Under the pieces are notes generated by a model. That model searched no databases. It saw nothing but the letters and a program-made list of their open reading frames with translations, and was not told where the DNA came from. A stretch of 64,000 nucleotides of DNA from Echinometra lucunter (lineage: Eukaryota > Echinodermata > Echinoidea > Camarodonta > Echinometridae), in the NCBI GenBank assembly GCA_029962745.1, contig CM057162.1:21410932-21474931 (forward strand), read 5' to 3'. Both the position numbers and the translations under genes were made by a program. Below are positions 3,403 to 61,983 of the stretch, in pieces (the stretch's first letter is position 1; each line of letters begins with the position of its first letter).

Positions 3403-3453
<51 letters not shown>

Positions 3454-14812: not shown

Positions 14813-14847
<35 letters not shown>

Positions 14848-35200: not shown

Positions 35201-38200
35201 ACTGCACTTGTAAGTTAAAAGTGTCTAACTCATTTATTCACGTGCTATGCTGTAAACCTCCTAATGATTTTCTTGTTAAAATTTTCATTTGGTATTATGA
35301 CCCCGTTGGACAGTCTTTGTCAACATCTCGTTATAACCCTGCCAAACAAAGTTTAAAGAAGGTATGGGAATCAATTGAACTACATTCCTCAATTTTTGAG
35401 CAGTGCTCATGAAATTTGAAATGCACATTGGTCTTGTAGTGAAGATGCGCAAGACATATTTTTTTAATGTGTTGGAAACTGCGTTGCCATGGTAACAGCA
35501 TATAATGGCAATTAATTGGAGAAATATTGTGAATTGAACTAATTCCTCATTTTCTGAGCAATGCTCATGAAATTTAGCACACACATTGGTCTTATAGTGA
35601 ATATGTGCAAGGCATATTCCTAATGTGTTGGAAACTGCATTGCCATGGTAATGGCATATTATGGCAATAAATCGGGGAAATATTGGGGATCGAACTACTT
35701 CCTCATTTTTCAAGCAATGCTCATCAAACTTCCACACATATTGGGGCGGGGGTATTTATCACTGTGATATTTCTAGTCTTCCCAGCTAAAATGGCGATGA
35801 CAGCACAAATTGTTGTCACTGCTATTATCATCATGAACTCACATAACATCATCAATAACATTTTAAATTTTTTACAGGTCAAGAAATATGATTATAGTGA
35901 TTTCCATGTCATCATTTTATTTCTCTGTTTTTGGATTAATTGGTTCTGGATTAATTTCCCCTGCAGGCCAGAAATATTGCTGAAATTATATCATAGGCCA
36001 CATAATAGTATATGTAGGTATAGACCTCTTACATAATTGTACGGGCCTAACATCTCTTACCCTAATATTAACCTTTTATTTTCTAAATAGTGCAAGCAAG
36101 CACAAAGTTTGATAGTTAATTGTATTTTTTTAATCAAATGCATTGGAAAAGATAGAAGAACAAAATATGAATTTAAAGACCACTTCATAATGCTTGCAAA
36201 ATGGTTCCGGGAGTTGGATCAATTTCAAACTTCTTCCTTTTTAATTAGTTTTCATGGAATGTAACAAACCCGAAAATGGCATAAAAATCCTTTATTCGTT
36301 TTGTTCATGGATAATTATCATCCTTACATTAGATAGATCCTTATCACCCATAAAAATGATATGTTTTTATAGGTTTTCCCAGCCAAGTTTGTAATTTTGT
36401 CAATATAATTCATATTACAAGCATTCAGTTTTAAAAATTTTTGCCAAACAATGCTATTCTGCAGCTCAAATTCATGATTCATGTTTTCGAATTCATCTTG
36501 GAAGCATTCAATTTAGCATTTTAGTCAGTCAAATTCACACTTTTCTCATCCAAATTCAAAGTTTTCGCACATATTTTTTAAATAAAACCGTCTTTCATTT
36601 TAACATCGCATGGTCATGTGATCAAGCAACGGGTGATGTTCGTTATTCCGAAGGTTTGTTATTCTGAAGGTTGTTATTCCGAAGGTTCTTTATTCAGAAA
36701 CATGCAACTTGCATATATCTAGATGTTCGTTAGTCTGAAAATGAAAAAGGGTTCGTTAATCCAAACATTTGTGGCGTTATTCCAAAGGTTCATTGGTCAT
36801 AAGGTTCGTTGTTCCGAAGTTAATCCGAAAATGAAATAGGGTTCGTTATTCCGAAGGTTCGATAGTCAGAAAATGAAATAAGGTTCGTTATTCCGAAAAT
36901 AACTAACAAACTAACAAACCTTATTTCCTTTTCGGACTAACGAACCTTCGGAATAAAGAACCTTTTATCATTTTCAGACTAACGAACCTTTGCAATAAAT
37001 AACAAACCTTATTTAATTTTTGGACTCACGAACCTTCGGAATAATGAACCTTCGGAATAAATGAACCTTCAGAATAAATGAACCTTCGGAATAAACGAAC
37101 CTTCGGAATAACGAACTGTAACCCAGCAACACGCCTGCTTGTACATTGCAATTCACCTTGGAGCAACCAGTTTAGCAGCTTGTGCATTCATTTTAACATT
37201 TGTTGTTGTTTTCTTCTTTATGCATTTGATATCTTTGTATCAGGTTAATTGGGCGTGACTTTATATCTGCCTTTCAAGGCAGAGCCTGAAGGTTTCTGAT
37301 AATGTTTTTTTTAGAGATCTCATTGTTTGATGTAGTGACTGTTAAAAGGCTTGTTCATTTTTTTTCTTGCACAGAAGTTAAAGACATGAATCAGGATAAA
37401 TACAGATAAAGATCTAATGTAATTGTTTCATTTTGAAGGAAGGATACACACTGGAAGACATTTCAGAAGACTGTTGAAAATTCTTATACCGTTGTTTCAT
37501 GCACAAGATTTAAAAGAATATGCAGTGGTTCATCTGAGTATAAGTCTTTTTTTTTAAAATACCCATCAAACACGTAAGGAAATGGTGGAAGGGGTGAAGT
37601 TGTGGCCTTCATCCCTTTCTTCGGGGGACTGTCACATCAATTTGTTTTGTTCAAAATGGGCCCATATTTTCAAGTATGTATGCACAAGTTGTGCACATCT
37701 TGAAGAAATGTGCAGAGTGCAATCCATCCTTTAAATAAGTAGCCTACAAAAAGTGAGTGATATGGATTCAAGGTGCAAATGAAATTCAGAATCGGCTCTT
37801 TTTTTCATGGTAATTCAAAACAAAATAGTTGGATTATCTACATGCATGTTAACATGACAGAACATATTACGAATTTACTGCCCATTGGCAAATTTTAATA
37901 CTCGAAGTGTCCTTTCTTCAATAGCAGATGAATTTGAATGATTCTTATATACATGCTAATTTGAATTGCACCGAGATGAATTTGAATGATACAAAAGCAA
38001 TTACCACAGTAATGCTTCAGAGTTCATCACTCCTAGCAGCATGTTAACAACACCTTTTATCATAGGGGTAGACAGACATGGCTACTAATCAAAGTTACTG
38101 CAAAGGTGATGTTGCCCCTGGAAGTTGGAAACTGACTTATTTCTCGCATCAGATAGCATTATGTTATACTCATGTAGATTCTGTGTTTTATTCTGGTTAT

Positions 38201-40135
38201 ATTTAAACCAATTTATTTCTTTATAAAGCAACAACTAATCCACCTGGGTGCTTCCCATGTTACGCTCCTGGTTGGGATTGTCTGCCATATGACTATGTGT
38301 GTGATGGCTTTCCTGATTGTCTCAACGCAACAGATGAATCATATTGCAACAGTGAGTTCGAATTGATACTTAGTTTTTGCAATACAGTGTGCCACCTATA
38401 ATGAAGCTTGGCATCTTATTCAAAAATGCTTTCCCTACTATAAGATGTCACTTTAAAAAAGAAATCAGTTTTCTCAAAAATATCTGTGGAAGCATGCTCT
38501 AAAAGTTCAAGTACAAAGTAAGGGATCCGTAATATGGTCGACAAAAATGGTAAGATGAAGAAAAAAATTAAAAACATTGTTCTAGAATTTGAATAAGTCG
38601 AACGTGCCTCTGTATAGTATCAAGAAATAATGTGCGCTTATCTTGTTGCATATAGATTGTTTCTTCAATTCATACTGATACATGTTGTTAATGTTTGCAG
38701 AAAATATGGAAAGGATTAAAAAGAAAACCCTTCAAACATCTAACTGAAAATTTATTCTATTTAGCTTACCAAAAAATGAGAATACCTTGTATATGAGAAA
38801 TAATGATAAGTGAAGATCAGCATCATTGATTTCTTTCATCTGAATGCTCTGCAAGACTTAAAGGCATTGGCTAACATTGTTATGATTTTAAAAAATCTCA
38901 TTTTGTTACATAAAAATGGGATCAACATTAGGGTTATAGTGTAAAAATACCAGTCTGAAAGTTTCAGAGCATAATATCCACGGGAAATATCTTTAAATAT
39001 TAGAAATGTGAACCAATGTTTAAAAAATATACGAGGGTCGGTTACATAGACCCAACATAAGGAATGCGCATGAGCACATGACTCAACGGACCGCACTGTG
39101 TGTATTGACGTATCACGCGGCGGAAGGCAGGTAACGGTATTTTTGAATTCGTGCAAACGGTCCTCTTAGTTCAGTGTCTCTCGAGACGAAAGCTGATAAA
39201 ATTGCGGTTTGCGTCTAACTTACAGCTTTTCCTTCCAAATTATGGTTGGTTTCAGGGTTTTCGAGTACAAATACAACTACTCATACGCATGTTTCATCTT
39301 AGTTTGAGAATTTTTTAAATCGGCTGCTCACAATGTTAGCCAATGCCTTTAATAGGCTATCACAGGCAATCTTCTATGAAGCTCTATTTGTTACCATAAA
39401 TCTTGTATTTTCTTTGTTTTTCACAGCAACCACAACCCCCACCAACATGACTTGCTTTGAATGCGAATCTGATTATTGCGTGTACGAGGAATGGATTTGT
39501 GATGGCCAATTTGATTGTTACGATAATCTAGATGAAACAGATTGTGGTAAGTGAAATATGAAAATAATAGATGGTAATTATTAGTCAAATCAGACATCGG
39601 AGCAATGTAATTTTTACATTGCATCACCTGACTTTCACAAGCCAAAAAATTGTGAGTTGTCTCAGAAACGGATTGAGAATTTTAACATTTGTTGTCACTT
39701 GTTAGCTACTGATGAGGAATGCATTGGATTTTTACACACGTAACCCTCTCCTTGCAGGAAAGAGAGCTTTAACTATTGACATAACTTTCTTCATTATGTG
39801 CAATATTTTATGTATGAATTTTTTATCATGTATGTCTTGGGAGTAGCAGGTGTGGACGCACATGCCTCCGGCCAACAGTGTTGTACTTCACTTTTGTGCA
39901 CCCTGACCCACTTGCTGCTCCCTAATCTTTTTTACTTGTTCTTTCATTCTCATTATGTATTTGTCCGCTGCTATTTTTGTATTGTACCTGTGCTTTTTTT
40001 AATCTGGTCAAATAAATAATAATAATGATGATAATAATGATAATAATAATAATAATAATAATAATGATAATAATAATAATAATAATGATAATAATAATCA
40101 AAATAATAATAAGAAGAATAATAACAATAATAATG

Positions 40136-40166
<31 letters not shown>

Positions 40167-40909
40167 TAATAATAATAATAATAATAATGATAATAATAAT
40201 TATAATAATAAATAACCTGTTGCCTACTGGAACAGTGTTGTCCCTGTATTAAGTCTATGGTTCAGTAGTCTGCAGGTTAAGCTTTTTTGCATATCACATT
40301 TTATTCTTGCAGATTGGAAAGAATATATCAAGAGAAGATTTAATCAGTTTTCTTTCCATTCATTTACCCCGCAAACAGGCGTCTGCAAAGATGACCAGTT
40401 GCAGTGCTACTACGACGAGACCTGTATCCAGTCAAATGAGACGTGTGATGGTTATTACGACTGCCCTGGAGGTGTGGATGAATATAACTGCACAGGTGAA
40501 CATTATCGATCATCGACTTGATTTGATCTGATATAACCATTCATATGCACATAACTTACGAAGTACACAGGATAAGCTGCTTCTAAAGCTATCTCACTTA
40601 AAAACAAAAGAAGTCTTTGGGATCGTGCTTTCAATTGCGATGCTCCAAAACTTTGGAATAAACTCCCACTGGAAATAAGAAAAGCCCCATCTGTTACCAT
40701 CTTCAAAGATTTATTGAAGACTCACCTCTTTTCAGGAGTTTTTGGTTAGTTGTATTACATGTATATATTTAATTTTTTTGAGCAGTAGCATTGTTGGGAG
40801 CTCTGTTACATTACAGATCAGTAGAGTATATTTACATAGTAACTGTGCTATATAAGTGATCTAATTATTATTATTATTATCATCATTATCATTATTATTA
40901 TTATTATTA

Positions 40910-40946
<37 letters not shown>

Positions 40947-52900: not shown

Positions 52901-52997
52901 TGATAATAATAATAATAATAATAATAATGATAATAATAATAATAATAATGATAATAATAATCAAATAATAATAAGAAGAATAATAACAATAATAATG

Positions 52998-53028
<31 letters not shown>

Positions 53029-53780: not shown

Positions 53781-53814
<34 letters not shown>

Positions 53815-56800
53815 CATTATTATTATCAACCATTAAGGTGATCTTGCCTATGGAGGTTTGCATGGTGGTACTGAACATGGATAAGGTTTACAGTTCACCA
53901 TGTGGTAAGTCCTGAAAGGACGGTTATTAGAGAAAAAGTGGGAAAAGTTGAGAGGAGAAGAAATGGAGAGGCAAGATAAAGAGTAAGAAAGTTTATCTTC
54001 TTGAGAATGAGTTAAAGGGTAAGTCCACCCTAGAAGTTTCACTGTTTCAGTAAAAGGAGATAAATTTGTACAGCATTTTAAAAAAGAAGTGAGCAAAATC
54101 GGTCAAAGAATAAGAAAATTACACTCATTTACATTTCCTAGTAAAATACTCTCAGCTTGGCAAATTGGCAACACTGATGACATCATATGCAAGCAGGTCT
54201 CCATTCACTTTGTACATAAAATTTCACATTTTCTCAATTTTCTTGGTAGTAACACATTTTCTTACCCCATAGTCAAAGTATGTTATGTAAAAAGCAATTC
54301 TTCTGAACATACATTGATTATGGGGGTTAGAAAATGTGTCACTCATCTCTAGAAAGATACTCTCTCTTGCTCCCTATCCCGCCTTTCCATTTCTTCTCCC
54401 CCTCAACTTTCTCCAATTTCCTCTAAGCGGTAACAGTCCTTTTCAGGACTTACCACATGGTGAAGCTTAAAAACATCATTCACGTCACCATGAAGGCTTG
54501 TTCACATATTAGGAGGAAAGCCCCTTCAGGAAAGCCCTGCAGTTTCCCCTCTTCATATTTGAACAGGCCTTAAAGGCATCTCGTGCCTATTAGGACATTC
54601 TCTTGTGTGGTATGAGTCCTGATTGGTACTAATAATAAGCACCAATTAACATTTTCTTCATTTATTGTTCTAATCAGTTTGGAAACGTAGTGAAAATTAG
54701 TGTCCTGAAAACATATGTAAAAAATGCAAAATGCATGCTGTTGTATGTTTTGCTTGCGTTTCGGATGCTTCTTCATGCCACTGTGTTTTGCTAAGCTAAC
54801 ATACACTTCATTTCTTATCTACATCCTTATGTAAGTGAATGGAAATGTGTACTTTACATAAACAGTTACATAGACTGGTACATATAATTTCCTAAGTTAT
54901 TGTACTTTTAATTAGTTAATCCCTGTATATAGGATTATTGTTCTTCACGTACCCTAACTAACAGTTGTAATATGGCAAGAAATTAACAACTGAAAGATTC
55001 AACCCAGTTTGTAGTCCAATGTACATGTGTGTTTACATTTTGTGGCTTATGATCATTCCAATACCTCAAAGTCTACACCAATTCTTTTTCACTACGTAGT
55101 CACCATTCTGCAGTTACTTCCAAATTGTAGTCCCATTATCTTTAAAAGTACCCATGCTGGCTTCATACAAATTGTATACTGACAATACTTTGTTTCATAT
55201 CTTCCAATTTTTCTCTACAGGATGTTTTGCCTGTCCAGGTAGCTCATCTTGTCTGTATGAGCTCCAGGTCTGTGATTTCTATAACGATTGTCCAGGAGGG
55301 GAAGATGAAGTAGAAAGTCTCTGCAATCATTCACAATTCATCAGTAAGTCTCTAAGTACTCTGCAGTCTTCCTTTGTATAATACTAAGGCAGCAATAGAT
55401 GATCAAGGCATGGGCATTATCTGTCACAAGATTCAGTTCCTTGATACCATCTCGGAACAGTTTTATGAAGTGAAACTAATTCTAAGGCAATCTGTGTATC
55501 AAAAGAAACTTTTCTGTAAAGGCCGTACCGGTATTTTTGTTTCACGTCAACACTTTTCCTTACTGAAAACTATACTAAGAGAGCTTGTGCATAAAGACCA
55601 CCTGCCCATAAGGAGCACCTTTCATCCTCCAAGTTTTGTAATCTTCAGAGTTTCTTACCATCAAAATGGAAGCTTGTGACGATTTACTGTTCAAGTCTTG
55701 ATATCCAAACTTCTGACTGTGAATGGTGGCCGCTAACGATGTGCGAAAAGTTCTGTTTTTCCAGCACTCTACTTTCTTCTCAACTCTTGGTCCCATCTTT
55801 TTTTTTCAATAGAGGAATTTCAGCCGTAATAAAACAGAGTACCATGGCAACAATGGTAATTTGATGGTATACTGTCAGTCAATTATGGTAAATTATCAAA
55901 TTACCATCAAATTGCTATGGGAGACTATGGTACTTTGTTGCACTGTGCTCTACTTTCTTCTCAATTCTCTACCCCGTCTTTGCTCTATTTTCTTCTCAAC
56001 TCTCTACCCCCATCTCAGAGGAAATTCAGGTCCCAACAGGAGAATGGGTGACAATTGACCAGCATTCTGGAAGTGAGGATGATCGCGGCACCCCAGCGAG
56101 CGACTTCGTCGAGTTCACACACTATGTGTTCCGTGGTGAGCCTGGTACAACCCTGTTCATGGAGCTGTTGAATTACACCTGGTCCAATGGCCCACTTCTT
56201 CCTCTGCTTCGAATCTACGCCGGCAACGGGGAAGATCCCACGAACTCCTCAGCAAACTCGGCCTACTTGGATGGCAGCGGGTACTCTCATAGCATCAGCT
56301 ATTCTGATAACTTTACCTTGAACAGTGACACGGGCTACGGTCTAGTTGGATTCCCCAAGGGTATTGATGCATATGTCAAGATAAGAGTCACTGCCATAGG
56401 TAAGCACCAAGTATTGATACATTTATACAAGTCACAGCCATTGGTAAGCACCAAGGATGATACATTTGTACAAGTCACAGCCATAGGTAAGCACCAAAGA
56501 TTGATGCATTTATATGAGTCACTGCCATGTAGGTAGGCACCAAGGATGATACATTTATACAAGTCACTGTCATAGGTAAGCACCAAAGATTGATACATTT
56601 ATACAAGTCACAACCATAGGTAAGCACCAAAGATTGATACATCTATAAGAGTAACTGCCATGTAGGTGAGCACCAAGCATTGATACATTTTTTTACAAGT
56701 CACAGCCTTAGCTAAGCACCAAAGATTGATACATTTATACAAGTCACTGCCATAGGTAAGCACCAAAGATTGATACATTTAAAAAGTAACTGTCATTTGT

Positions 56801-59800
56801 AGCAACCATGCACACTCATCCTAGAAAAATCTTGATTCAGTTGTGTTAAACATGCATTCAGTGAACACAGTGCAGCACACAGTCTTCTGCTGCAGTGCAT
56901 GGGAAGCTGACTGAACGTCAGGGTGCAATGAGCATGTTTCTCTGTGACTGGTCATTCGTAGAACATTATTTTATGGATAAAGCTTGTTTTTTAACTTATT
57001 TGTATAACTTTTATTTTTTCATGTAGATACATCTTCCTGATGTGTCATGGAAGGCTATGTACATGTGATACATGTATTCTAGCTATGTTCATGCAAAAAA
57101 TCCATTTTATTTATAAAAAAAGATAATAACATAGATATACATTTAGCCAACTGGAGAACCAAACTCTTCATATTAATGAATTGGTGTGTGTATACTCAAA
57201 TACTTTATCATCAGTTAATCACTGTTTGATCAAATCTAGAAATTATTACCTGTAATATAACACTATGTGCATCTGTAGTTTCAGTAGATCCCATGATTTT
57301 GGGGTATCTTTTCATCTTGGAAACGGCCACATATTATTATTTTTTCTCTTTATAATTCAGCTTGTGAGAGCCCTCAGACGCCGTGCTTCAGATCCCCTAA
57401 CTGTGTAAACTGGGCCAATGAAACCTGTGATGGAGTAGATCAGTGTGTCTACAGCAAAGAAGATGAACTGAACTGTGATGGTAAGGCCCCATTTACGTCA
57501 TGTTCCAGTGAGGCAAGTTGGGTCAGTAGATTAACCCATTCGTGACAGGAATTATTGAAAGCCTAATTTGATCAGCTTTTATTCTTCAAATTGGCAATAC
57601 CAACATTTTTATTTTATTGCTACATTTTTCTTATAAAATGTCATGTATCTGAAATGAATATAAATTGACAGGAATTATGATGAAAAGTCAAAAAGTTGCC
57701 AATTTAAGGATTTTAATGCTTATTTTCCTTTTAAAAAATTTCAGCATCAAACAACAAATATTGACGCAACCAAAGTAGGCACAGTTTGTGTAGAATTTTT
57801 TGCTCTTTCTGCTCATGTATTTGGTATGATTTTTAGGGTTTTGCATCAAAAGATATTAGGCCAAACCACAAAATGTGAACCTCGGTCATGAATGGGTTAA
57901 GTCTGCCTGTTGAACCAAATATTGTGGGTTTGAATAGACCCCGGGCAGACACCTGAAGCTTGCATTATGTGTGTATGTGCCCCCTCCCCCCCTGTTTCAT
58001 GGAAGCAGGCTATGTTTCAGTGGAAAACACTCTGTCTCTCTGATAGGATGTTAACACATTGGCTACTGGAACCGGATGGCCCCTATATCAAGTCTGGGGA
58101 AAGAGAGAATTCATTATTCAAAGGGAGGCCCTGTGTAGAGGACACTCACTACCTTTGCACATTAAAAACCCACTTGGAAGAATAGGGAGAGATCCCAGTG
58201 AGACCAAGTAGTTATATCGGTAGGAGAGACCCAGGGTCTTGATGAGAAATTTGCTTCCCCCCCCCCCCTCTCAAAGTTGAAGTGTAGGTCACGCCAAATT
58301 TGAGAAATAATGACCTTATTTATGCAGGCTTCTGAGAACTGCTGCAGTAAACTGCAGAGGTAGAATAAGAGTCCAGATCTTGACATTTCTGTTTAACCTA
58401 CATGTACATGTAAAGTGAGTATGTGTAGCATCTTTGTTGTGCATAGCGACCATTTTCCCCACTGCTTATTTTACTGTATAATTTCATGAATGACCACAGT
58501 TTACTTTTTCTTGTGTGAATGAGCCGTAAACAGAAAGAAAACTTAAAACCCACAACAAAAGAGTTTATAGCCAATTGGTCTACTACCAGTTGGTCTAATT
58601 GTCAGATCGTTTTACACCACCATGGCTTAACCCATTTCGTCTACTATCATTTTGGTCTCATTGCCATTTGGTCCAATCATCACTTGGTCTTATACCCACT
58701 TGGGCTAATTGTCATTTTGTCTAATGATGAAATGGTCTAATTGTTACCTCGTCTACTTAGTTTTCCTCATTCCTAATTGGTCCATTACCAGTTTATCCAG
58801 TCAGATAGACTAAGTGGTGTTAGACCAAGTGGATATTGACAAAAAGGGCATAGCCTAACTGGAAATTGAACGAAATGGTAATTGGACTAAGTGGCTATTA
58901 GACTAAATGGTTATTAGACAAAGTGGTTGTAGACAAAATCGGATTAGACTATGTGAGATGAGACCAAACGGGCATTAGACAAAGTGAGAGTAGACACCAA
59001 GTGACAATTCACCCACAAAGACCAGCATCACAATAAAAACCACTTAATGATATTAATAAGATGCTCATTAACGTGTCACTAGTGGTTCACACTTAAAGCA
59101 ACAAACCCCTGCATTTTTTGTGTTTGGGTGTGTGTGTGTGAATGGTGTACAAGGGGGGGAAAATGGCAATTCAAGAGTTTTTATTCTTTTGCGGGGGAGG
59201 GGGGGGGGGCTCATGGGGGCAAAAATGTGTGAACCAATTAAATTCTTATAAAGTTAATGCAAAATGTGACAAAGATATCTTCTGCGCAACTTTTGGCAAA
59301 TTCTGTTTTATTTATTAAATGTGAAGAAGCCTCTATTTGCCAAAAGTTGCGCAGAATATATCTTGACATCATATTTGGCATCAACTTTATAAGAATTTCA
59401 TTGGTTCACACCTTTTTGCCTCCAGGAGGCAAAAAAAAACCCAAAACCTCTTGCATTGCTGTTCCCCCCCCCCCCTTGTACACCATTCACACACACACAC
59501 ACACACACACCCTCACACACACACACACACAAATGGATTTGCTTCTTTGTATGTGAAGAAGCCTCTATTGTTACTTTACTATTATTGCTGTTGCAACATT
59601 GTATTTACCAGATTGTGATCTGTCCTGTTACTTTGATGATTCAACATGTCTTTACTACCATGATTACTGTGATGGTGAATATGACTGCTCTGCCGGGGAA
59701 GATGAAATTAACTGTGCAGGTAAAAGCTTCAAGTTGATTGAACTTAATTTATGTCCGGACCCCTCAAGGTGGACAATTTTAACACAGAGCTCAGTGCATG

Positions 59801-61983
59801 CAGAGCCAAGGATTTAGATCCAGACCCCTTATCTAAAAAATAGGTGTGGAGCCCTGTTTAATAGTTGGCAGAACAGATGGGTTTGAATCCACCTTTGGTA
59901 GATTCCTGAAGCCTGCATGATACAAACAGGCTATGTGTCAGTGGAAAACACTCCATCCTCTGGGATATGGTGTTAAATGGAGGTCCCATGTAGACATAAG
60001 TCAACCCCTTTGCACGTTAAGTGCGGTTTTCACAGGCACCAGAACGTTTTGCGAATGGTGTGGATGTTGAAAAAATTGTATGCTTCGAAAATTTGCCAAA
60101 CTTGGGCGGGGGTTCAGAAGCATTGTCAACTATTGTTCGAGGGATGTGGGAAACATTCGCAAAAATTTGAAACTTTTTATAAATTATGCTGAACTAAAAA
60201 TGAACAATTGGCGACGCTTCCGAACTCCTGTGCATGTTCGGCGAACTTTTGAAGCATGTAATGTGAATGTCAGACTTTGCCATTTTTCTACATTGGCATC
60301 CTTCGCAAATCATTCGCATGCCCGGTGAAAACCACACTTTAAGAGCCCAGTGCACTATTTAAACCATAGAGGTACAGTGTCACCTTTAGGAGATGCTTTT
60401 GCAGTATCTGTTGGTCCAGAATGTTGGGCAGTACATATCATACATGGGCAGAAAGAGAAAAATGCACTGACAAATTTGAGCCCATTCCCATCACTGTATG
60501 GTGTGGCATTCTCGAATTAGAGCAGTTTAAGTGTAACTAATCATTAAACTCTTTAAATTGGCAATGCAGTGAATAATATATAATCACTTTTTCTGTGTTC
60601 AAATTGGCAAATTTTGATTCAATTTTCAATTATATTTCATTATGGTTTATGTTATATCCATATTTATTTTTTTCAAGCTATGTAAACATGGAAAAAAATT
60701 ATTTGTATTGCCAATTTGAGGATTGAAGATGATTAATTTAGACCTCAAGAAAGCTCTGTACTGCTATGGGTTAATGAAGGGTAGGGGGAAACCGTCATGT
60801 ATTGGTACAGCGCAACATCCCAATGAGTTATATCAGGAGGAGAGATTGGAGGATCACAGCCGGTGATTAAGTTTTCTTTTCCCCCTCTTGGTGTAGGATA
60901 TGTCAATAGTTTAATGATACTACTTTTGTTTGGCATATTTTTTGTGCAAAACCACCGTGTCTAGGACATGATGGTATTGCATCAAGAAAAGGCAACGGGT
61001 AATATCATGATTTTGTTATAAATGGATGGTTTGTTAACCTTCTGTTTTTATCTATCCCTCTCTAAATTTTCCCAAAGGATGTTTCTCTTGTCCTGGAAGC
61101 TCTGAATGTATTATTGATTCCCTGGTATGTGACTTCTATAACAACTGTCCAGGAGGAGAAGACGAAGCAGAAAGTCTCTGCAGAGATTATGATTTTATCA
61201 GTAAGCTTTCAAATCATCTTCTGCTCTTTTTATACTGTAGTGTGAAGTGTGTGGAAACTAATTTTCCTGTTCATCATTAATAGGTTGGGGTAATAATTGA
61301 CAAATATAAAACATCACAATTTTGTTATTCATGATTTTTCTGTATGTTCCTTGAAACTTGAGGGATTTGATTTGGTTAATGTGATAATGTGATTTATTTT
61401 GATTTGATTTGATATAATTTATATGAAGTGAAGTGATTTTGATGTAGTTTGTTTTGAATTCTTTTAATTCACTTTCATTTGATTTCATTTGATTAATTGA
61501 GTGTATTTAATTGCTTTGATTGATTTGCTCACATTTTATTAGAATCTATTTGGATTGCTTCATTATTCATTCTGATGATTACCCCAACCTTAGTTCCTTT
61601 TGATGTCCCAACTGGTGAATGGGTCACTATTGAACAACACTCTGGAGACTTCGTAGAGGATCGCGGCACCCCGGCCAGCAACTTCTATGACTTCTACCAC
61701 TACGTCTTCAACTCCTATCCTGGAACCACCCTCTTTATGGAGCTTCAGAACTACACCTGGTCCTCCGACGCTCATCCCATTCTCCCTCTCTGGCGCATCA
61801 TCGCAGGATCGGGCGATGATCCAGCTTCGGGTCTCGGAAACAGAGCATACTGGGATGCATCAGGATATGGGTACAGCATCGGTTCTTCGCAGAATTTCTC
61901 TCTGACTGATAACACAGGATTTGTTCTCCTCGCTTTCCCTAAGGATGTGGAAACCTATGTGAAGTTCCGCGTCACTTCTATCG
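337..61983 (+). CDS. Overall gene: multi-exon LDLa / CUB-like mosaic protein (partial at both ends)
   Basis: The exons listed separately form one transcript. Module borders are phase 1, coding lengths are multiples of 3, and joining consecutive exons creates no stop codon. Collapsing the assembly duplication around the gap leaves 29 exons and 1,532 codons: 22 LDLa domains (six Cys, CDGxxDC...DE calcium signature) and 5 cysteine-free CUB-like domains. LDLa domains fold around a calcium ion and bind protein ligands outside the cell, so a secreted or cell-surface binding protein is likely. The repeating order is (beta) alpha gamma CUBL delta. I see no start methionine, signal peptide, transmembrane segment or stop. 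It could be a secreted mosaic, a receptor ectodomain, or the N-terminus of an LDLa-rich GPCR. That exons belong to one gene rather than two neighbours is inferred from phase and module order. Confidence 0.85.
454..1089. repeat. Intron with degenerate ~110-bp tandem repeat
   Basis: Blocks containing 'catgaaattaaggatatgttagca' variants and 'gatcag(g/a)ctttt' recur around 690-800 and 830-980, two diverged copies of about 110 bp. The left edge of the A/B duplication (near 872) falls inside this repeat. A T-rich tract at 1070-1089 is the acceptor of the next exon. Confidence 0.55.
1090..1206 (+). CDS. LDLa exon alpha, unit A
   Basis: 117 bp, phase 1 to 1, between tttttttcag and gtagtaat. It reads [16 protein letters not shown] then CDGYEDC and a GSDEFNC tail, six cysteines with all calcium-binding acids. 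It is identical at every base to the unit B exon at 11898-12014, although the flanking introns have diverged. Confidence 0.92.
1207..2103. other. Intron containing the scar of a lost beta exon
   Basis: Near 1378-1436 there are short (AGT)n and (ATT)n runs. At about 2028 the sequence jumps from 'gaggggtaa' directly to 'cctacttctg'. In unit B these two words are separated by 585 bp that contain an LDLa exon. I see no exon here. Confidence 0.7.
2104..2220 (+). CDS. LDLa exon alpha', unit A
   Basis: 117 bp, phase 1 to 1, after ttaacag and before gtaggaat. It reads [16 protein letters not shown], then [16 protein letters not shown]: six cysteines and a full calcium site, plus an N-glycosylation sequon (NTT). 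It is identical to the unit B exon at 13506-13622. Confidence 0.92.
2684..2806 (+). CDS. LDLa exon gamma, unit A
   Basis: 123 bp, phase 1 to 1, acceptor atccaaag, donor gtaagtct. It starts [11 protein letters not shown] and ends [18 protein letters not shown]. Only two residues separate the first two cysteines, against roughly five to seven in textbook LDLa. The CD...DC...DE acids are kept. An exon of this type precedes every CUB-like domain in the window. Confidence 0.9.
3409..3450. repeat. (TC)n microsatellite, unit A
   Basis: A run of tc dinucleotides with a short 'tgtc' lead-in. The matching run in unit B (14811-14847) is shorter, as expected of a slipping microsatellite. Confidence 0.9.
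3946..4214. mobile_element. CACTA-ended MITE, 269 bp, unit A only
   Basis: The ends 3946-4042 and 4118-4214 are 97-bp inverted repeats with only a few mismatches, starting CACTATGAACATGACGGAC and enclosing a 75-bp loop. The flanks are 'gcagcTAC' and 'TACgcgaag'. Unit B has the empty site 'gcagctacgcgaag' near 15262, so the element duplicated TAC on insertion. CACTA ends with a 3-bp target duplication are typical of the CACTA/EnSpm group, though the long arms make it foldback-like. It encodes nothing. Confidence 0.85.
5845..6002 (+). CDS. CUB-like domain, first exon, unit A
   Basis: 158 bp, entering in phase 1 after ccttag and leaving in phase 0 at CAG|gtaaac. It encodes the N-terminal third of the domain: [31 protein letters not shown], then LYLEIQ. 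The other units carry the whole domain in one exon. The motif (E/D)DRGT seen in C, D and the last CUBL is replaced here by RHLGRHT. The domain has no cysteine. Confidence 0.88.
6003..7211. other. Extra intron inside the CUB-like domain, unit A
   Basis: 1,209 bp, phase 0, placed after a CAG codon at a position where units C, D and the last CUBL have uninterrupted coding sequence (CTGCAG|AAC in unit C). It is AT-rich. I found no inverted repeats at its ends and no coding sequence. Confidence 0.85.
7212..7449 (+). CDS. CUB-like domain, second exon, unit A
   Basis: 238 bp, phase 0 to phase 1, acceptor gaattcag, donor gtaagaat. It covers the C-terminal two thirds: [34 protein letters not shown], then [12 protein letters not shown]. 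With 5845-6002 it gives 396 bp against 399 in the single exon of unit C. Several NxS/T sequons suggest a glycosylated extracellular domain. Confidence 0.88.
7400..7866 (+). repeat. Three tandem copies of the exon 3' end and splice donor, unit A
   Basis: The real exon end (about 7400-7449) is followed by a copy at about 7557-7620 and another at about 7783-7863, each with some 160 bp of downstream intron, a period of roughly 200 bp. Copy 2 has lost the donor and carries a stop. Copy 3 keeps [10 protein letters not shown]|gtaagg and has an acceptor-like ttccttctag at 7824-7832, which frames a 31-nt candidate exon (7833-7863) that would shift the frame if used. Confidence 0.75.
8371..8524. mobile_element. 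Short MITE with ~45-bp imperfect inverted ends, unit A
   Basis: The ends ggtgctgttgca...tttgccatca and tgatggcaaag...caacagcacc pair as an imperfect inverted repeat of about 45 bp. CAG flanks both sides and may be a 3-bp target duplication. The same element stands in unit B (19918-20072), so it predates the A/B duplication. Confidence 0.75.
8712..8831 (+). CDS. LDLa exon delta, unit A
   Basis: 120 bp, phase 1 to 1, acceptor ttttctag, donor gtaagaaa. It reads [15 protein letters not shown], then [20 protein letters not shown]. Six cysteines are present. The second acid of the signature, the D before Cys5, is Q in this type, a change shared by delta exons of all units. An exon of this type follows every CUB-like domain except the last, where the sequence runs out. 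Confidence 0.9.
8856..9117. repeat. GAT-rich imperfect trinucleotide array, unit A
   Basis: The array starts about 25 bases after the delta donor: gatgatgat interrupted by ggt, aat and gaa. All three forward frames and a reverse frame stay open because GAT units contain no stop, which produces Asp/Glu-, Met- or Ser-rich reading frames. I consider these artefacts of composition. Confidence 0.9.
9118..9788. other. Intron between two GAT-rich arrays, unit A
   Basis: Ordinary AT-rich intron with a short run of 'ttttaac' repeats at 9325-9365, longer here than in unit B. No exon is visible. Confidence 0.6.
9789..10340. repeat. GAT-rich minisatellite with higher-order 24-bp unit, unit A
   Basis: From 9990 to 10290 the GAT array is organised in units close to gatgttgaatatgatgatgg followed by catt, about 24 bp. 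Reading frames through it give DVEYDDGI repeats, but there are no splice sites in phase with the gene. Homology with unit B ends inside this array. Confidence 0.85.
10341..11679. other. Unique spacer between duplication copies A and B
   Basis: It begins with a run of about 15 C near 10367 and is otherwise AT-rich. No part of it aligns with the sequence after unit B. I see no exon, RNA gene or complete transposon in it. Confidence 0.6.
11898..12014 (+). CDS. LDLa exon alpha, unit B
   Basis: 117 bp, phase 1 to 1, acceptor ttttcag, donor gtagcaat. Every base matches the unit A exon at 1090-1206, six cysteines, complete calcium site. A methionine 97 bases upstream opens a longer ORF only because the T-rich acceptor tract reads as Phe. 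Confidence 0.92.
12015..13069. other. Intron alpha to beta, unit B
   Basis: It contains an (AGT)n run at about 12178-12226, longer than in unit A. From about 12900 it resembles the DNA before the unit C beta exon (34940 onward), including the shared word 'aatgtaggcctcttttt'. This supports common descent of the two beta exons. Confidence 0.65.
13070..13201 (+). CDS. LDLa exon beta, unit B (deleted from unit A)
   Basis: 132 bp, phase 1 to 1, acceptor tcaacag, donor gtaagtta. A Thr/Ser/Pro leader ([11 protein letters not shown]) precedes [18 protein letters not shown] and GEDELNC. The usual CDG is CDD, but the calcium-binding acids remain. The leader may act as a spacer with O-linked sugars, which is inference. 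The closest relative in the window is 35078-35209. Confidence 0.9.
13506..13622 (+). CDS. LDLa exon alpha', unit B
   Basis: 117 bp, phase 1 to 1, acceptor ttaacag, donor gtaggaat. Identical to 2104-2220 in unit [17 protein letters not shown] and GGGDEYNC, with six cysteines. Confidence 0.92.
14080..14202 (+). CDS. LDLa exon gamma, unit B (first calcium ligand changed)
   Basis: 123 bp, phase 1 to 1, acceptor atccaaag, donor gtaagtct. It reads [11 protein letters not shown], then [20 protein letters not shown]. Compared with unit A it has one silent and four amino-acid changes (Q to H, D to N, H to Y, V to E) in a short stretch. The D to N change (codon 14133-14135) hits the Asp after Cys4, a side-chain calcium ligand in characterised LDLa domains, so calcium binding may be weaker here. 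Confidence 0.9.
14203..17369. other. 3.2-kb intron between gamma and CUBL, unit B
   Basis: Parallel to 2807-5844. It holds (TC)n at 14811-14847, the empty MITE site near 15262, and the unit-B-only insertion described separately. About 85 bp present in A at 3634-3718 are missing here. No exon is seen. Confidence 0.6.
15696..16219. mobile_element. Insertion of ~524 bp with hairpins, unit B only
   Basis: Unit A reads 'gtgaatattctcaaatat' where B has about 524 extra bases between 'gaatatt' and 'ctcaaatat'. The first 150 bases are an inverted repeat with arms about 15703-15765 and 15779-15842, meeting at 'ccgaaggcgcggg'. A second inverted pair, attattatctatac at about 15843 and its complement at 16206, frames the rest. 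It is probably a non-autonomous DNA element or two nested ones. I could not define a clean target duplication. Confidence 0.65.
17370..17527 (+). CDS. CUB-like domain, first exon, unit B
   Basis: 158 bp, phase 1 to phase 0, acceptor ccttag, donor CAG|gtaaac. It encodes the same segment as 5845-6002, with one replacement (I to V before RERHLG) and one silent change. Confidence 0.88.
17528..18758. other. Extra intron inside the CUB-like domain, unit B
   Basis: 1,231 bp, phase 0, homologous over its length to 6003-7211 with small indels. The intron was therefore already present in the common ancestor of units A and B. Confidence 0.85.
18759..18996 (+). CDS. CUB-like domain, second exon, unit B
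   Basis: 238 bp, phase 0 to phase 1, acceptor gaattcag, donor gtaagaat. Compared with unit A there are about six replacement and five silent changes: V-S-V-L becomes V-R-V-S, and NFSL becomes IFSL, which removes a beta-strand Asn. The reading frame stays open to the donor. Confidence 0.88.
18947..19413 (+). repeat. Three tandem copies of the exon 3' end and splice donor, unit B
   Basis: Same arrangement as in unit A: the true end at 18996, a decayed copy near 19112-19190 and a third copy ending at 19410 with gtaagg. Copy 3 again has ttccttctag in front, framing the 31-nt segment 19380-19410. The repeat predates the A/B duplication. Confidence 0.75.
19918..20072. mobile_element. Short MITE with imperfect inverted ends, unit B
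   Basis: Counterpart of 8371-8524, with the same ggtgctgttgc...gcaacagcacc ends. The left flanking triplet is TAG instead of CAG. Confidence 0.7.
20259..20378 (+). CDS. LDLa exon delta, unit B
   Basis: 120 bp, phase 1 to 1, acceptor ttttctag, donor gtaagaaa. It reads [19 protein letters not shown] and KEDEFKC. Differences from unit A are G to S near the start and G to K before the last cysteine, plus silent changes. Confidence 0.9.
20404..20642. repeat. GAT-rich imperfect array, unit B
   Basis: The array begins shortly after the delta donor, as in unit A, and is slightly shorter. The delta frame reads through the donor into a Met-rich stretch, which I regard as intron. Confidence 0.9.
21296..22112. 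repeat. Expanded GAT-rich minisatellite, unit B
   Basis: About 800 bp of gatgatgatgttgaa and gatgttgaatataatgatgg units. It is longer than its unit A counterpart, notably a run of gttgaagatgatgatgat units at 21890-22075 absent from A. Long Asp/Glu, Ser or Ile reading frames on both strands follow from the composition. Confidence 0.88.
22450..22560 (+). CDS. LDLa exon alpha, unit C
   Basis: 111 bp, phase 1 to 1, acceptor tttaacag, donor gtatcatt. It reads [31 protein letters not shown]: six cysteines and a full calcium signature. It is shorter by two codons than the A/B alpha exons. It opens unit C; no beta exon precedes it. Confidence 0.9.
22561..23687. other. Intron alpha to gamma, unit C, first part
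   Basis: Unremarkable AT-rich intron. I see no exon, clear transposon ends or RNA gene. Confidence 0.6.
23688..24192. repeat. Homopyrimidine tract of ~500 bp
   Basis: Almost only T and C on the + strand, with rare G or A, built from ttctt and cttcttt words. It ends about 95 bases before the gamma acceptor at 24288. Open frames of 140-190 codons of Phe/Ser/Leu result from the bias and are not genes. Such tracts can form triple-helical DNA and can slow polymerases. Confidence 0.9.
24288..24410 (+). CDS. LDLa exon gamma, unit C
   Basis: 123 bp, phase 1 to 1, acceptor ttgtaaag, donor gtaagtct. It reads [30 protein letters not shown]. It has the short Cys1-x2-Cys2 spacing of this type and all calcium-binding acids. 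Confidence 0.9.
   Translation, partial: VALPVLEVTTVSLISKYVISMMTVQMVKMKLRVFANTWNL
24641..25101. mobile_element. Possible MITE with short inverted ends
   Basis: The ends gggctggtattca and tgaacactggccc pair as an inverted repeat of about 13 bp with mismatches. The interior is full of 'acttag' and 'agtaaaatact' words in both directions. No target duplication was identified. Confidence 0.45.
25515..25913 (+). CDS. CUB-like domain, single exon, unit C
   Basis: 399 bp, phase 1 to 1, acceptor ttgcag, donor gtaagaca. Order of motifs: [96 protein letters not shown]. There are no cysteines. The alternating hydrophobic pattern and the 'L-R-I-x-A-G' and 'TGY-V-x-F' segments recall CUB domains, hence CUB-like, but the assignment is tentative. 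The A/B intron position corresponds to CTGCAG|AAC here. Confidence 0.88.
25934..26480. repeat. GAT-rich (GATGGT) array, unit C
   Basis: It begins 20 bases after the CUBL donor and consists of gatgatggt units, with 'gatgatgcgtggt' repeated three times near 26185-26295. Reading through the donor gives a Met/Val run, not a plausible protein segment. Confidence 0.9.
26960..27356 (+). mobile_element. LINE 3' fragment (CR1/L2-like end of ORF2)
   Basis: At 27060-27189 one frame reads [18 protein letters not shown], then a stretch ending MLKTYLFIK and a stop. LWNxLP...LKxxLF is a hallmark of the C-terminus of many LINE reverse-transcriptase ORFs. An internal TGA where CGA is expected shows decay. 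The 3' end has 'aagcgctgtataaata' and an ATT run, as in the element at 40530. Confidence 0.75.
27556..27669 (+). CDS. LDLa exon delta, unit C (last Cys codon split by the intron)
   Basis: 114 bp, phase 1 to 1, acceptor ttctctag, donor gtaagttt. It reads [32 protein letters not shown], and its final T joins GT of the next exon to make the sixth cysteine. In units A and B the exon continues with GATG before the donor. Here the donor uses the Cys codon itself (T|GTAAG), so the exon is shortened. Confidence 0.85.
27670..29221. other. Intron delta to epsilon, left part
   Basis: Holds C/G homopolymers near 27790, 28485, 28566 and 28920, and at 28737-28812 an inverted LINE tail (reverse strand: gcgctatacaaatccagaatatt then ATT repeats). 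28850-29160 is richer in GC and includes TGACGTCA at 28861. No exon is seen. Confidence 0.5.
29222..30648. mobile_element. Candidate DNA transposon, 1.43 kb, non-coding
   Basis: The 20 bases at 29222-29241 (aattggccgtatcgataaaa) recur as an exact inverted copy at 30629-30648, and similarity continues weakly for another 15 bases inward. No transposase-like frame lies between them. A 101-bp tandem duplication sits inside. I could not identify a target duplication. Confidence 0.65.
29729..29932. repeat. 101-bp tandem duplication
   Basis: Two copies starting 'gtaaaaactact', at 29729 and 29830, run in parallel to 'aaaattcttctg', differing at very few positions. They lie inside the candidate transposon 29222-30648. 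Confidence 0.9.
31040..31156 (+). CDS. LDLa exon epsilon, unit C
   Basis: 117 bp, phase 1 to 1, acceptor tttccag, donor gtaagttc. It starts with GT, completing the Cys of the preceding exon, then [31 protein letters not shown]. Six cysteines, short first spacing. This type occurs once in the window. Confidence 0.87.
31358..31488 (+). repeat. 131-bp dispersed direct repeat, copy 1
   Basis: From 'atagaaaatgtaaaaatgcc' to 'aaattttaaaatctgt' this matches 32644-32774 over equal length with few mismatches. The flanks differ, so it is a mobile or duplicated fragment. Not recognised. Confidence 0.8.
32225..32325. repeat. (TTTA)n microsatellite
   Basis: About 24 near-perfect tttа-type tetranucleotide units with single-base interruptions ('ttca'). 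Confidence 0.95.
32644..32774 (+). repeat. 131-bp dispersed direct repeat, copy 2
   Basis: Second copy of 31358-31488, 1.3 kb downstream in the same orientation. Confidence 0.8.
34598..34931. mobile_element. Foldback element with 36-bp inverted ends, C-run flanks
   Basis: 34598-34633 and 34896-34931 are 36-bp inverted repeats with one mismatch (ggggatatgtctcattga...). Inside, 'ccctaaacggggatt' and 'ttttgatacccttt' words repeat. A run of about 25 C precedes it. It ends about 150 bp before the beta exon. Confidence 0.7.
35078..35209 (+). CDS. LDLa exon beta, unit C
   Basis: 132 bp, phase 1 to 1, acceptor attacag, donor gtaagtta. Leader [11 protein letters not shown], then [26 protein letters not shown]. 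Compared with unit B beta it keeps the standard CDG. The flanking intron is also related to unit B, so the two exons share a recent ancestor. Confidence 0.9.
35356..35745. repeat. ~157-bp tandem repeat, 2.4 copies
   Basis: 'gaactacattcctca...gctcatgaaattt' recurs at about 35378, 35537 and 35692, with 'ttgccatggtaa' in each unit. It lies within intron sequence that separates blocks still related to the unit B beta intron, so it is a later insertion or expansion. Confidence 0.85.
35746..36119. other. Intron, end of single-copy part before the contig overlap
   Basis: The stretch near 35760-35870 resembles the unit B intron after beta (13330-13420). From 36120 onward the sequence recurs after the assembly gap. 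Confidence 0.55.
36635..37116. mobile_element. Foldback array of 'gttcgttattccgaagg' units
   Basis: The left half repeats gttcgttattccgaagg and variants, and the right half repeats the complement ccttcggaataacgaac, meeting near 36895. Ends: gatgttcgttattccg and cggaataacgaac. The copy after the gap is 49511-49987. Confidence 0.8.
37117..38228. other. Intron upstream of unit D
   Basis: I see no exon, element ends or RNA gene in this stretch. Confidence 0.55.
38229..38351 (+). CDS. LDLa exon beta', unit D
   Basis: 123 bp, phase 1 to 1, acceptor ttataaag, donor gtgagttc. It reads [35 protein letters not shown]: six cysteines, and a Thr/Pro leader shorter than in beta. The frame is intact here, while the second copy (51097-51217) has four single-base indels. 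Confidence 0.88.
38858..39352. mobile_element. MITE with perfect 23-bp inverted ends
   Basis: 38858-38880 and 39330-39352 are exact inverted copies (ttaaaggcattggctaac at the outer side). The element is 495 bp without coding capacity. TA on both sides is a possible target duplication, as in Tc1/mariner-type insertions. It ends 74 bases before the next exon. Confidence 0.85.
39427..39546 (+). CDS. LDLa exon beta'', unit D
   Basis: 120 bp, phase 1 to 1, acceptor ttttcacag, donor gtaagtga. It reads [35 protein letters not shown]. The branch point and pyrimidine tract must lie in the 74 bases between the MITE end and the exon. Intact here; the second copy lost one A. Confidence 0.9.
39547..40378. 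other. Intron beta'' to alpha, unit D
   Basis: Contains the ATA/ATG microsatellite 40017-40215, preceded by 'tgtgctttttttaatctggtcaaataaata', which may be a transposon tail. No exon. Confidence 0.55.
40017..40215. repeat. (AAT)n microsatellite with GAT interruptions
   Basis: About 200 bp of aataat with scattered gat and aag. The second copy is 52873-53075. Confidence 0.93.
40379..40495 (+). CDS. LDLa exon alpha, unit D
   Basis: 117 bp, phase 1 to 1, acceptor gcaaacag, donor gtgaacat. It reads [34 protein letters not shown]: six cysteines and a complete calcium site. Intact here; the second copy lacks one C. Confidence 0.9.
40530..40966 (+). mobile_element. LINE 3' fragment (CR1/L2-like) with (ATT)n tail
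   Basis: One frame at 40618-40749 reads [20 protein letters not shown], continues with [13 protein letters not shown], and stops. The LWNKLP and LKTHLF motifs mark the end of a LINE reverse-transcriptase ORF. It ends 'ctatataagtgatctaatt' then (ATT)n to 40966. The coding part is not interrupted, so the insertion is younger than the one at 26960. The second copy is 53403-53830. Confidence 0.8.
41026..41598. mobile_element. MITE-like element with ~125-bp inverted arms
   Basis: Outer ends ttcaccatgtggtaagtcctg and the complement at 41578-41598 match, and imperfect pairing continues for about 125 bp. The centre (41150-41410) starts 'gggtaagtccaccct', possibly a nested second element. The copy after the gap is 53894-54464. 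Confidence 0.75.
41599..42353. other. Intron alpha to gamma, unit D, right part
   Basis: I see no exon, transposon ends or RNA gene. Confidence 0.55.
42354..42476 (+). CDS. LDLa exon gamma, unit D
   Basis: 123 bp, phase 1 to 1, acceptor tctacag, donor gtaagtct. It reads [29 protein letters not shown]. Intact in both contig copies. Confidence 0.92.
43150..43539 (+). CDS. CUB-like domain exon, unit D (damaged C-terminal part)
   Basis: 390 bp, acceptor atctcag, donor gtaagcac. N-terminal motifs are normal: [61 protein letters not shown]. From about 43458 single-base insertions turn the expected DTGYGLVGF into [10 protein letters not shown] and alter the last 20 residues. The second copy (56019-56399, 381 bp) gives the expected ending, so I trust that one. 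Confidence 0.8.
43530..43950 (+). repeat. ~44-bp minisatellite carrying the splice donor, contig 1 copy
   Basis: Decayed copies of 'gtaagcaccaaagattgata' spaced about 44 bp, each ending in a copy of the exon end. The array has more indels than the same array at 56385-56805. Confidence 0.8.
43951..44516. other. Intron CUBL to delta, unit D
   Basis: No exon, repeat array or transposon end is seen after the minisatellite. Confidence 0.55.
44517..44636 (+). CDS. LDLa exon delta, unit D
   Basis: 120 bp, phase 1 to 1, acceptor attcag, donor gtaaggcc. It reads [33 protein letters not shown]. Six cysteines. Like A and B it has Q rather than D before Cys5. Identical frame in both contig copies. Confidence 0.92.
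44637..45729. other. Intron delta to alpha2, unit D, left part
   Basis: No exon is seen. 'aaattggcaa' words recur, and a C run lies near 45417. The segment at 45500-45600 has no recognisable feature. Confidence 0.5.
45730..46162. mobile_element. Foldback array of 'ttggtctaattgtca' units
   Basis: The left half has direct variants of ttggtctactatca and ttggtctaattgtca. The right half has their complements (tagactaagtggtnatt, agacaaagtgg). The arms turn near 45960. Copy after the gap: 58571-59010. Confidence 0.75.
46283..46652. mobile_element. Palindromic element, ~370 bp, before alpha2
   Basis: Arms run from 'gtgtacaagggggg' on the left to 'ccccccttgtacac' on the right. The inner ~85 bp are well paired: aaaaaggtgtg...tctgcgcaacttttgg against its complement. 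The outer arms contain G/C homopolymers and the (CA)n tract. The motif 'tgtgaagaagcctctatt' occurs inside and again just after it (46707). Copy after the gap: 59126-59499. Confidence 0.75.
46766..46875 (+). CDS. LDLa exon alpha2, unit D (frameshifted in this copy)
   Basis: 110 bp against 108 in the second copy (59612-59719). It begins [22 protein letters not shown] normally, then an extra T at about 46857 and an extra A at about 46866 create TGA and TAA before the last cysteine. The other contig reads through without stops. I treat this as sequence error near a contig end. Confidence 0.75.
46876..48241. other. Intron alpha2 to gamma2, contig 1
   Basis: No exon is seen. Some stretches (47170-47340) look like imperfect inverted repeats around 'ttcgcaaa' and 'tttgcgaa', not delimited. 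Confidence 0.5.
48242..48363 (+). CDS. LDLa exon gamma2, unit D (frameshifted in this copy)
   Basis: 122 bp against 123 in the second copy (61078-61200): one C is missing at about 48255, so TGTCCTGGA reads TGTCTGGA and the frame is lost after CFSC. The remainder, shifted back, reads [18 protein letters not shown]. It lies 137 bases from the gap. Confidence 0.75.
48501..49000. other. Assembly gap (500 N)
   Basis: Exactly 500 N, which looks like a placeholder of fixed size. The flanking sequences are the two ends of a 12.3-kb overlap, so nothing may actually be missing here. Confidence 0.98.
49511..49987. mobile_element. Foldback array, second copy of 36635-37116
   Basis: Same units and ends, with small indels. 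Confidence 0.8.
51097..51217 (+). CDS. LDLa exon beta', second copy (frameshifted)
   Basis: 121 bp, acceptor ataaag, donor gtgagttc. Relative to 38229-38351 it misses a C near 51110, a C near 51151 and a T near 51184 and gains a G near 51157. The protein frame is destroyed. Probably the same exon read with errors. Confidence 0.75.
51724..52219. mobile_element. MITE, second copy of 38858-39352
   Basis: Same ends, with one A missing in the left terminal repeat. Confidence 0.82.
52295..52413 (+). CDS. LDLa exon beta'', second copy (frameshifted)
   Basis: 119 bp, acceptor tttcacag, donor gtaagtga. Identical to 39427-39546 except that GATGAAACAG has become GATGAACAG near 52405, which shifts the frame just before the last cysteine. 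Confidence 0.78.
52873..53075. repeat. (AAT)n microsatellite, second copy
   Basis: Same array as 40017-40215 with small length differences. Confidence 0.93.
53252..53367 (+). CDS. LDLa exon alpha, second copy (frameshifted)
   Basis: 116 bp, acceptor gcaaacag, donor gtgaacat. One C is lost near 53301 (TATCCAG to TATCAG), otherwise as 40379-40495. Confidence 0.78.
53403..53830 (+). mobile_element. LINE 3' fragment, second copy
   Basis: Same LWNKLP...LKTHLF tail and (ATT)n end as 40530-40966. Confidence 0.8.
53894..54464. mobile_element. MITE-like element, second copy of 41026-41598
   Basis: Same outer ends and nested centre. Confidence 0.75.
55221..55343 (+). CDS. LDLa exon gamma, second copy
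   Basis: 123 bp, acceptor tctacag, donor gtaagtct, same codons as 42354-42476. Frame intact. Confidence 0.85.
56019..56399 (+). CDS. CUB-like domain exon, second copy (better version)
   Basis: 381 bp, phase 1 to 1, acceptor atctcag, donor gtaagcac. Same as 43150-43539 up to NFTLNSD, then [20 protein letters not shown] and TAIG, which matches the family pattern in units A, B, C and the last CUBL. No cysteine; NYTW and NFTL sequons. Confidence 0.88.
56385..56805 (+). repeat. 44-bp minisatellite repeating the splice donor
   Basis: About nine units close to 44 bp: gtaagcaccaaagattgata, catttatacaagtcac, then a copy of the exon's last bases 'agccatag' directly before the next gtaagcacc. Most units thus carry exon end plus an intact GTAAG donor; variants are gtagg, gtgag and one ctaag. 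Confidence 0.9.
57361..57480 (+). CDS. LDLa exon delta, second copy
   Basis: 120 bp, acceptor aattcag, donor gtaaggcc, same sequence as 44517-44636. Confidence 0.87.
58571..59010. mobile_element. Foldback array, second copy of 45730-46162
   Basis: Same 'ttggtcta' and 'tagaccaa' halves. Confidence 0.75.
59126..59499. mobile_element. Palindromic element, second copy of 46283-46652
   Basis: Pairing of the outer arms is clearer here: 'gtgtgtgaatggtgtacaag' on the left matches the complement on the right, including the CA repeat. Confidence 0.78.
59612..59719 (+). CDS. LDLa exon alpha2, unit D (intact copy)
   Basis: 108 bp, phase 1 to 1, acceptor tttaccag, donor gtaaaagc. It reads [33 protein letters not shown]: six cysteines, short first spacing, full calcium site. 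Confidence 0.9.
59720..61077. other. Intron alpha2 to gamma2, contig 2
   Basis: Same content as 46876-48241. No exon is seen. Confidence 0.5.
61078..61200 (+). CDS. LDLa exon gamma2, unit D (intact copy)
   Basis: 123 bp, phase 1 to 1, acceptor cccaaag, donor gtaagctt. It reads [29 protein letters not shown]. The acid before Cys5 is N instead of D, so one calcium ligand may be missing. Confidence 0.9.
61594..61983 (+). CDS. CUB-like domain exon, last visible exon
   Basis: 390 bp, phase 1 to 1, acceptor aaccttag, donor gtaagata. Motifs in order: [102 protein letters not shown]. It is 394 bases after gamma2, the shortest gamma-CUBL intron in the window. A delta exon is expected next but is not in the remaining 2 kb. 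Confidence 0.9.

Follow-up and report, generated by a model that had tools for sequence, protein, structure and literature searches.

A 12.4-kb tandem repeat in an LDLa/CUB-like module gene of Echinometra lucunter is very probably one chromosomal stretch assembled twice across a scaffold gap

A gene in the Echinometra lucunter assembly that is composed of successive LDLa and CUB-like modules contains a 12.4-kb segment twice, once on each side of an assembly gap, and this raises the question of whether the segment is duplicated in the chromosome or whether a single stretch was written twice. The window, by which we mean the whole 64,000-nucleotide stretch of DNA that was analyzed (C12:21410932-21474931 of a 743-Mb assembly in 2,266 contigs), holds a single N run, an unstranded gap of 500 N at positions 48501-49000 that is probably a scaffold spacer of fixed size. 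An earlier sequence-only reading of this DNA had described two collinear, nearly identical copies that end and begin exactly at the gap and differ mainly by one-base indels, and our alignments bear out all three observations. The left copy (36120-48500, plus strand) closes the left contig and is 12,381 bases long, and the right copy (49001-61339, plus strand) opens the right contig and is 12,339 bases long; default blastn joined them in a single collinear plus-strand match of 97.85% identity with 26 mismatches, 201 gap openings and 242 gap bases. An edit-distance alignment counted 12,216 matching positions, with 20 substitutions and 220 indel events (200 of them single-base), and it abuts the gap in both contigs, taking in the left contig's last base and the right contig's first. 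A suffix of the left contig thus matches a prefix of the right contig as a dovetail, on one scaffold and with the assembly gap between the copies. The mismatch counts vary with the cost of gaps, from 20 substitutions with linear gaps to 44 substitutions and 185 gap openings with affine blastn scoring, and MAFFT with a high gap penalty, under which indel clusters become mismatches, returned 173 substitutions and 142 indel events; because MAFFT inflated the substitution count in this way, we used the edit-distance alignment in its place.

We compared the make-up of these differences with that of a control from the same gene, units A (872-10336) and B (11681-21860), which form a real tandem duplication of about 93-94% identity. 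With linear gap scoring, transversions account for 18 of the 20 substitutions between the copies (the other two being transitions) and for all 15 that lie outside a minisatellite at 43.5-44.0 kb (8 and 7 in its two flanking parts); with affine scoring the figures are 34 of 44 in total and 28 of 30 without the minisatellite. The control, which covers 7.4 kb in three blocks after blocks 872-2029 and 4315-4692 were filtered out for a few-base overlap with their neighbors, yielded 148 transitions and 127 transversions under linear gaps, or 275 substitutions to 80 gap openings. At the control share of transitions, the chance of seeing none among 15 substitutions is about 1e-5. A real duplication should show substitutions with a normal share of transitions, and the copies instead show 2 transitions in 20 substitutions against 148 in 275 in the control, a contrast also expected of a duplication so young that it has not yet diverged. 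Judged from their make-up in the sequence, the differences between the copies do not appear evolutionary.

Homopolymers account for only part of the indels, since 41 of the 200 one-base indels lie outside runs, 83 in two-base runs and 21 in runs of at least five, where the corresponding numbers for the 12,381 left-copy bases are 6,204, 3,430 and 605. Differences drop to 2 per 500 bases around the midpoint of the overlap (41.1-42.1 kb), and here both contigs should be sound. Their rate does not climb steadily toward the ends, with 12 in the left-most 1.5 kb of the overlap and 63 in the next 3 kb, and the picture is therefore one of about 4-6 kb of poor sequence at either end, without a smooth gradient. 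The densest cluster, 38 differences in 500 bases, is the minisatellite itself, a 44-46-base repeat (43533-43933 and 56386-56796) that starts at the 3' end of a CUB-like exon and is more regular in the right copy (82% matches, 4% indels) than in the left (67% and 19%).

We then considered the coding modules. A tblastn search with seeds taken from the window identified 37 modules that we took as exons, with the decayed CUB-like fragments of units A and B left out of the count; eight lie in each copy, all on the plus strand, in agreement with the earlier statement that eight exons are counted twice. Three are intact in the left copy and damaged in the right: LDLa-type exon beta' (38229-38351; right 51097-51217, module 51102), with predicted splice-to-splice lengths of 123 and 121 bases, LDLa-type exon beta'' (39427-39546; right 52295-52413, also given as 52291; 120 and 119 bases) and LDLa exon alpha (40379-40495; right 53252-53367, also given as 53239; 117 and 116 bases), the left copy of which matches Pfam PF00057 at E 6.7e-6. 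Another three are intact in the right copy and damaged in the left, comprising the CUB-like exon (56019-56399; left 43150-43539, also given as 43134) and LDLa-type exons alpha2 (59612-59719; left 46766-46875, also given as 46765; 108 and 110 bases) and gamma2 (61078-61200; left 48242-48363, also given as 48240; 123 and 122 bases). Two pairs are identical, namely LDLa-type exon gamma (42354-42476 and 55221-55343; modules 42347 and 55214), with no indels and no substitutions, and an LDLa-like exon (44517-44636 and 57361-57480; modules 44519 and 57363), with no differences. The next CUB-like exon (61594-61983, plus strand) stands in single copy directly beyond the repeated part.

In six of the eight pairs, then, one member is damaged, and each time it is the one nearer its own contig's broken end, just as had been claimed for the CUB-like exon, alpha2 and gamma2 on the left and, with splice-to-splice lengths and translations in agreement, for beta', beta'' and alpha on the right; translations also identify the damaged members of alpha2 and gamma2. 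The predicted splice-to-splice length is not a multiple of three in five of the six damaged exons, and the left CUB-like exon, with eight indels that net +9 bases, keeps such a length but has altered residues. Damage affects 6 of the 16 exons within the copies and none of the 21 found outside (Fisher 0.003), the latter having been judged from open module translations, so that badly broken ones could have evaded the seeds. The sorting of exons alone, three against three, has a chance of 1 in 20 and constitutes modest evidence. For the intact copies of all eight block exons the predicted splice sites fit phase 1-1; outside the block, two modules (11897 and 22446) had no site matching the donor pattern.

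Genomic copies of five interspersed repeats inside the overlap, none with an assigned strand, allowed us to ask which copy is in error, by recording the version that they carry at each difference. A difference was scored if an interval with three or more repeat copies, trinucleotide arrays included, extended 8 bases or more beyond it on both sides, and 76 of 90 repeat loci were used, the other 14 being dropped as lying within the window. The prediction was that each error belongs to the contig nearer its own free end. The repeat intervals contain 32 differences, four of them too close to an edge and 28 scored; of the latter, 22 agree with the prediction, one is opposite and five are undecided, such that 22 of the 23 decided differences are attributed to the contig whose free end is closer. 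The consensus quality of the two copies is accordingly unequal, with 22 of 28 scored differences being errors near a contig's own free end, as measured at the level of the consensus and not of reads. These 22 divide into 13 right-copy errors (36.6-39.3 kb) and nine left-copy errors (44.8-47.9 kb); 13 have 16 to 32 loci in favor and at most one against, and the remaining nine (38.9-39.3 kb) have two or three loci each.

The individual repeats follow the same arrangement. The repeat at 36630-37124 (counterpart about 49505-49995), near the right contig's free end, shows right-copy errors at all four of its differences, with 18-31 genomic loci backing the left version and none the right, and the repeat at 38858-39352 shows right-copy errors at nine of nine scored differences, with one more unscored. 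The repeat at 41146-41477, near the middle of the overlap, is identical in the two copies. At 44687-45061, three of four scored differences are left-copy errors and one more is unscored; the fourth, a substitution at 44891, contradicts the prediction by 14 loci to 4. The repeat at 47516-47944, near the left contig's free end, has left-copy errors at six of seven scored differences, each with 30-32 loci backing the right version and none the left, and two more are unscored; its seventh, an indel at 47858, is undecided at 12 to 14. The four differences in trinucleotide arrays have at most one deciding locus each, and at 40100 that locus is against the prediction. Repeat-copy polarity of this kind offers a read-free way to identify the wrong copy and to separate such artefacts from real duplications.

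The sequence-only reading had offered low-coverage contig ends or unmerged alleles as the source of the differences; the sequence favors the former, although low coverage itself is something we infer. Alleles would mean that the end of the left contig and the start of the right come from different haplotypes, a heterotype false duplication with an identical layout. A total allelic difference of ~2% lies within the range of outbred animals, so the total of about 2% seen here would fit, and the ATT array at 40914 does differ by one whole unit. However, allelic differences are mostly substitutions, a good share of them transitions, and the 12.2 kb compared hold two transitions, both in the minisatellite with linear gaps, or two outside it with affine scoring. 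Alleles at trinucleotide arrays also usually differ by whole units, but here three of the four array events, two single-base changes and one two-base change, break the phase of the unit, leaving 40914 as the whole-unit case, and two arrays of about 66 and 32 units retain interruptions that by eye are common to both copies. The first of these is an unstranded, interrupted (AAT)n array at 40011-40216 (counterpart 52874-53076; 206 versus 203 bases), and the second measures 99 versus 95 bases between the same end points. Given further that the repeat copies mark the differences as errors sorted by contig end, we consider alleles very unlikely. The lack of transitions outside the minisatellite under linear gaps leads us to read the copies as one haplotype and, on what the sequence suggests, to prefer a same-haplotype overlap over unmerged alleles; were the individual homozygous here, the two would be inseparable and the practical conclusion would be unchanged.

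A real and very recent 12.4-kb tandem duplication, at whose junction the assembler failed so that the contigs stop exactly at the branch points, would likewise end both copies at the gap, and it would arise in a gene that already has one real tandem duplication in units A and B. A branch point, though, should pile up the reads of both copies and so produce a good consensus, whereas the errors occupy the terminal several kb of each contig, and the duplication would require zero true substitutions together with copy boundaries exactly at both contig ends, while disrupting the otherwise constant order in which a gamma exon is followed by a CUB-like exon. We hold such an event to be very unlikely, and give the same slight credence to what it would represent, a novel eight-exon, phase 1-1 block in an LDLa/CUB-like gene, caught before any substitution and with its junction lost in the gap. 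The tandem order and shared orientation would equally suit an older paralogous duplication, present as the assembly shows it, but the ratio of 20 substitutions to 220 indel events runs opposite to that between units A and B, and indels have struck exons in six of eight pairs. Only if nearly all differences were sequencing errors would this make-up cease to contradict it, which returns us to the recent duplication, and we judge an older one extremely improbable.

We therefore hold with high confidence that the two copies are the same stretch of one chromosome written twice, where contigs that overlap by 12.4 kb were placed in tandem and left unmerged, and the double representation would most likely be an ordinary assembly error and not a real feature. 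The claim of overlapping contigs joined in tandem, as opposed to a biological duplication, is thus supported by repeat-copy polarity and by the transition/transversion make-up, and also by the shared microsatellite interruptions and by the finding of no more than two full-length copies in the assembly. Four probes spanning 11.2 of the 12.4 kb (36120-39120, 40000-42000, 42300-45300 and 45300-48500) each gave two full-length matches, both at this locus, and no third full-length copy appeared among the 40 scored candidates per probe search of the 743-Mb assembly, the others being repeat-sized. Searching the genome with the CUB-like domain returned eight matches, all within the window. We suggest that reads were too sparse, or polishing was missing, over the final 4-6 kb of each contig, and that the consensus of the contig ends thereby kept about 2% of mostly one-base errors. 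The resulting mismatch between the ends may then have stopped the assembler from joining them, after which a scaffolder that does not test neighbors for end overlap would have set the contigs in tandem with a 500-N spacer.

One other N run was seen whole in the assembly (C5:9234306-9234805), and its length of exactly 500 N suggests a fixed spacer; two longer runs, of at least 832 and at least 863 N and each truncated by the end of the locus examined, represent different gaps or withheld sequence. No end overlap was found at the C5 gap within 11.9 kb of left flank and 7.1 kb of right flank, indicating that overlap is not general in this assembly. One published assembly carries a 500-bp N spacer that was inserted by 3D-DNA (PMC8926247), and from the spacer length we would guess that Hi-C scaffolding was used here.

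When the copies are merged, the gene contains five gamma-type LDLa exons, each followed by a CUB-like exon; as assembled, the left gamma2 exon instead runs into the gap, after which LDLa exons follow. This regular order suggests that the true number of CUB-like modules is likely five and not six, and merging would take the apparent count from six to five and remove eight exons. Because the gene is built of repeated modules, the extra modules look like biology, and because the eight exons, where intact, all fit phase 1-1, a false second set would be readable in frame and may pass as exon gain. An annotation pipeline would probably take part of such a set as extra modules.

The modules themselves vary in structure along the gene. 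An intron interrupts the CUB-like module of units A and B (5845-7449 and 17370-18996), whereas a single exon encodes it in the remaining three units (25515-25913, 56019-56399 and 61594-61983), and units A and B carry decayed 3' CUB-like fragments (7553-7868 and 19100-19415), most with a stop. Unit B has about 580 extra bases (12850-13432) that include an LDLa-type exon (13070-13201), and 12908-13281 is 81.6% identical to 34935-35292, which carries the LDLa exon 35078-35209, as though one unit had received a module copied from another. Three CUB-like exons (25448-25960, 42855-43562 and 61524-61997) and one 3' half (7206-7511) matched nothing in Pfam at E values up to 1, and a search of 5.8 billion proteins with one CUB-like domain produced five candidates and no match at E 0.001. 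A sequence search for a solved relative of the CUB-like exons returned none that was convincing. A low-confidence, all-beta model of the CUB-like domain (mean pLDDT 55.5) found mostly complement CUB domains as its best Foldseek matches, none below E 0.08, and with so poor a model and no significant match we set a structural CUB assignment aside. A search of viral contigs gave no match, and Rfam at gathering scores and a tRNA scan gave none.

False duplications of this general form have been described in other assemblies. The account of Rhie et al. 2021 defines a 'homotype' class of 'overlapping sequences at contig boundaries', in which dovetailed ends appear as tandem copies after scaffolding with a gap, consensus quality is unequal and the duplicated segment is often as long as one corrected read (PMC8081667). 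Ko et al. 2022, where they describe the class, name a gap between the copies and very low depth as its marks and treat exons duplicated inside one gene as false exon gain (PMC9516828), and Kelley and Salzberg 2010 address the related problem for divergent chromosomes (PMC2864568). The heterotype class, as set out in the first two of these papers (PMC8081667, PMC9516828), shares the layout across a gap but is defined by haplotype-specific variants, for which the copies here lack good evidence. Units A and B resemble the present copies in lying in the same gene, in the same orientation and at similar length, yet they are rich in substitutions with a normal transition share, and the exons found in them are open in both units. 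As in the false exon gain of Ko et al. (PMC9516828), exons are doubled within one gene across an assembly gap, with the difference that this gene is itself built of near-repeats, so that extra modules look natural. The likeness to the homotype description (PMC8081667) extends from the dovetail and the tandem copies with a gap to the differing consensus quality, and it may extend to an absence of haplotype variants in the sequence (no transitions outside the minisatellite with linear gaps, two with affine); here, however, the wrong side was identified from genomic repeat copies and not from reads. Collectively, the two copies fit the homotype false duplication at contig boundaries as that paper describes it (PMC8081667).
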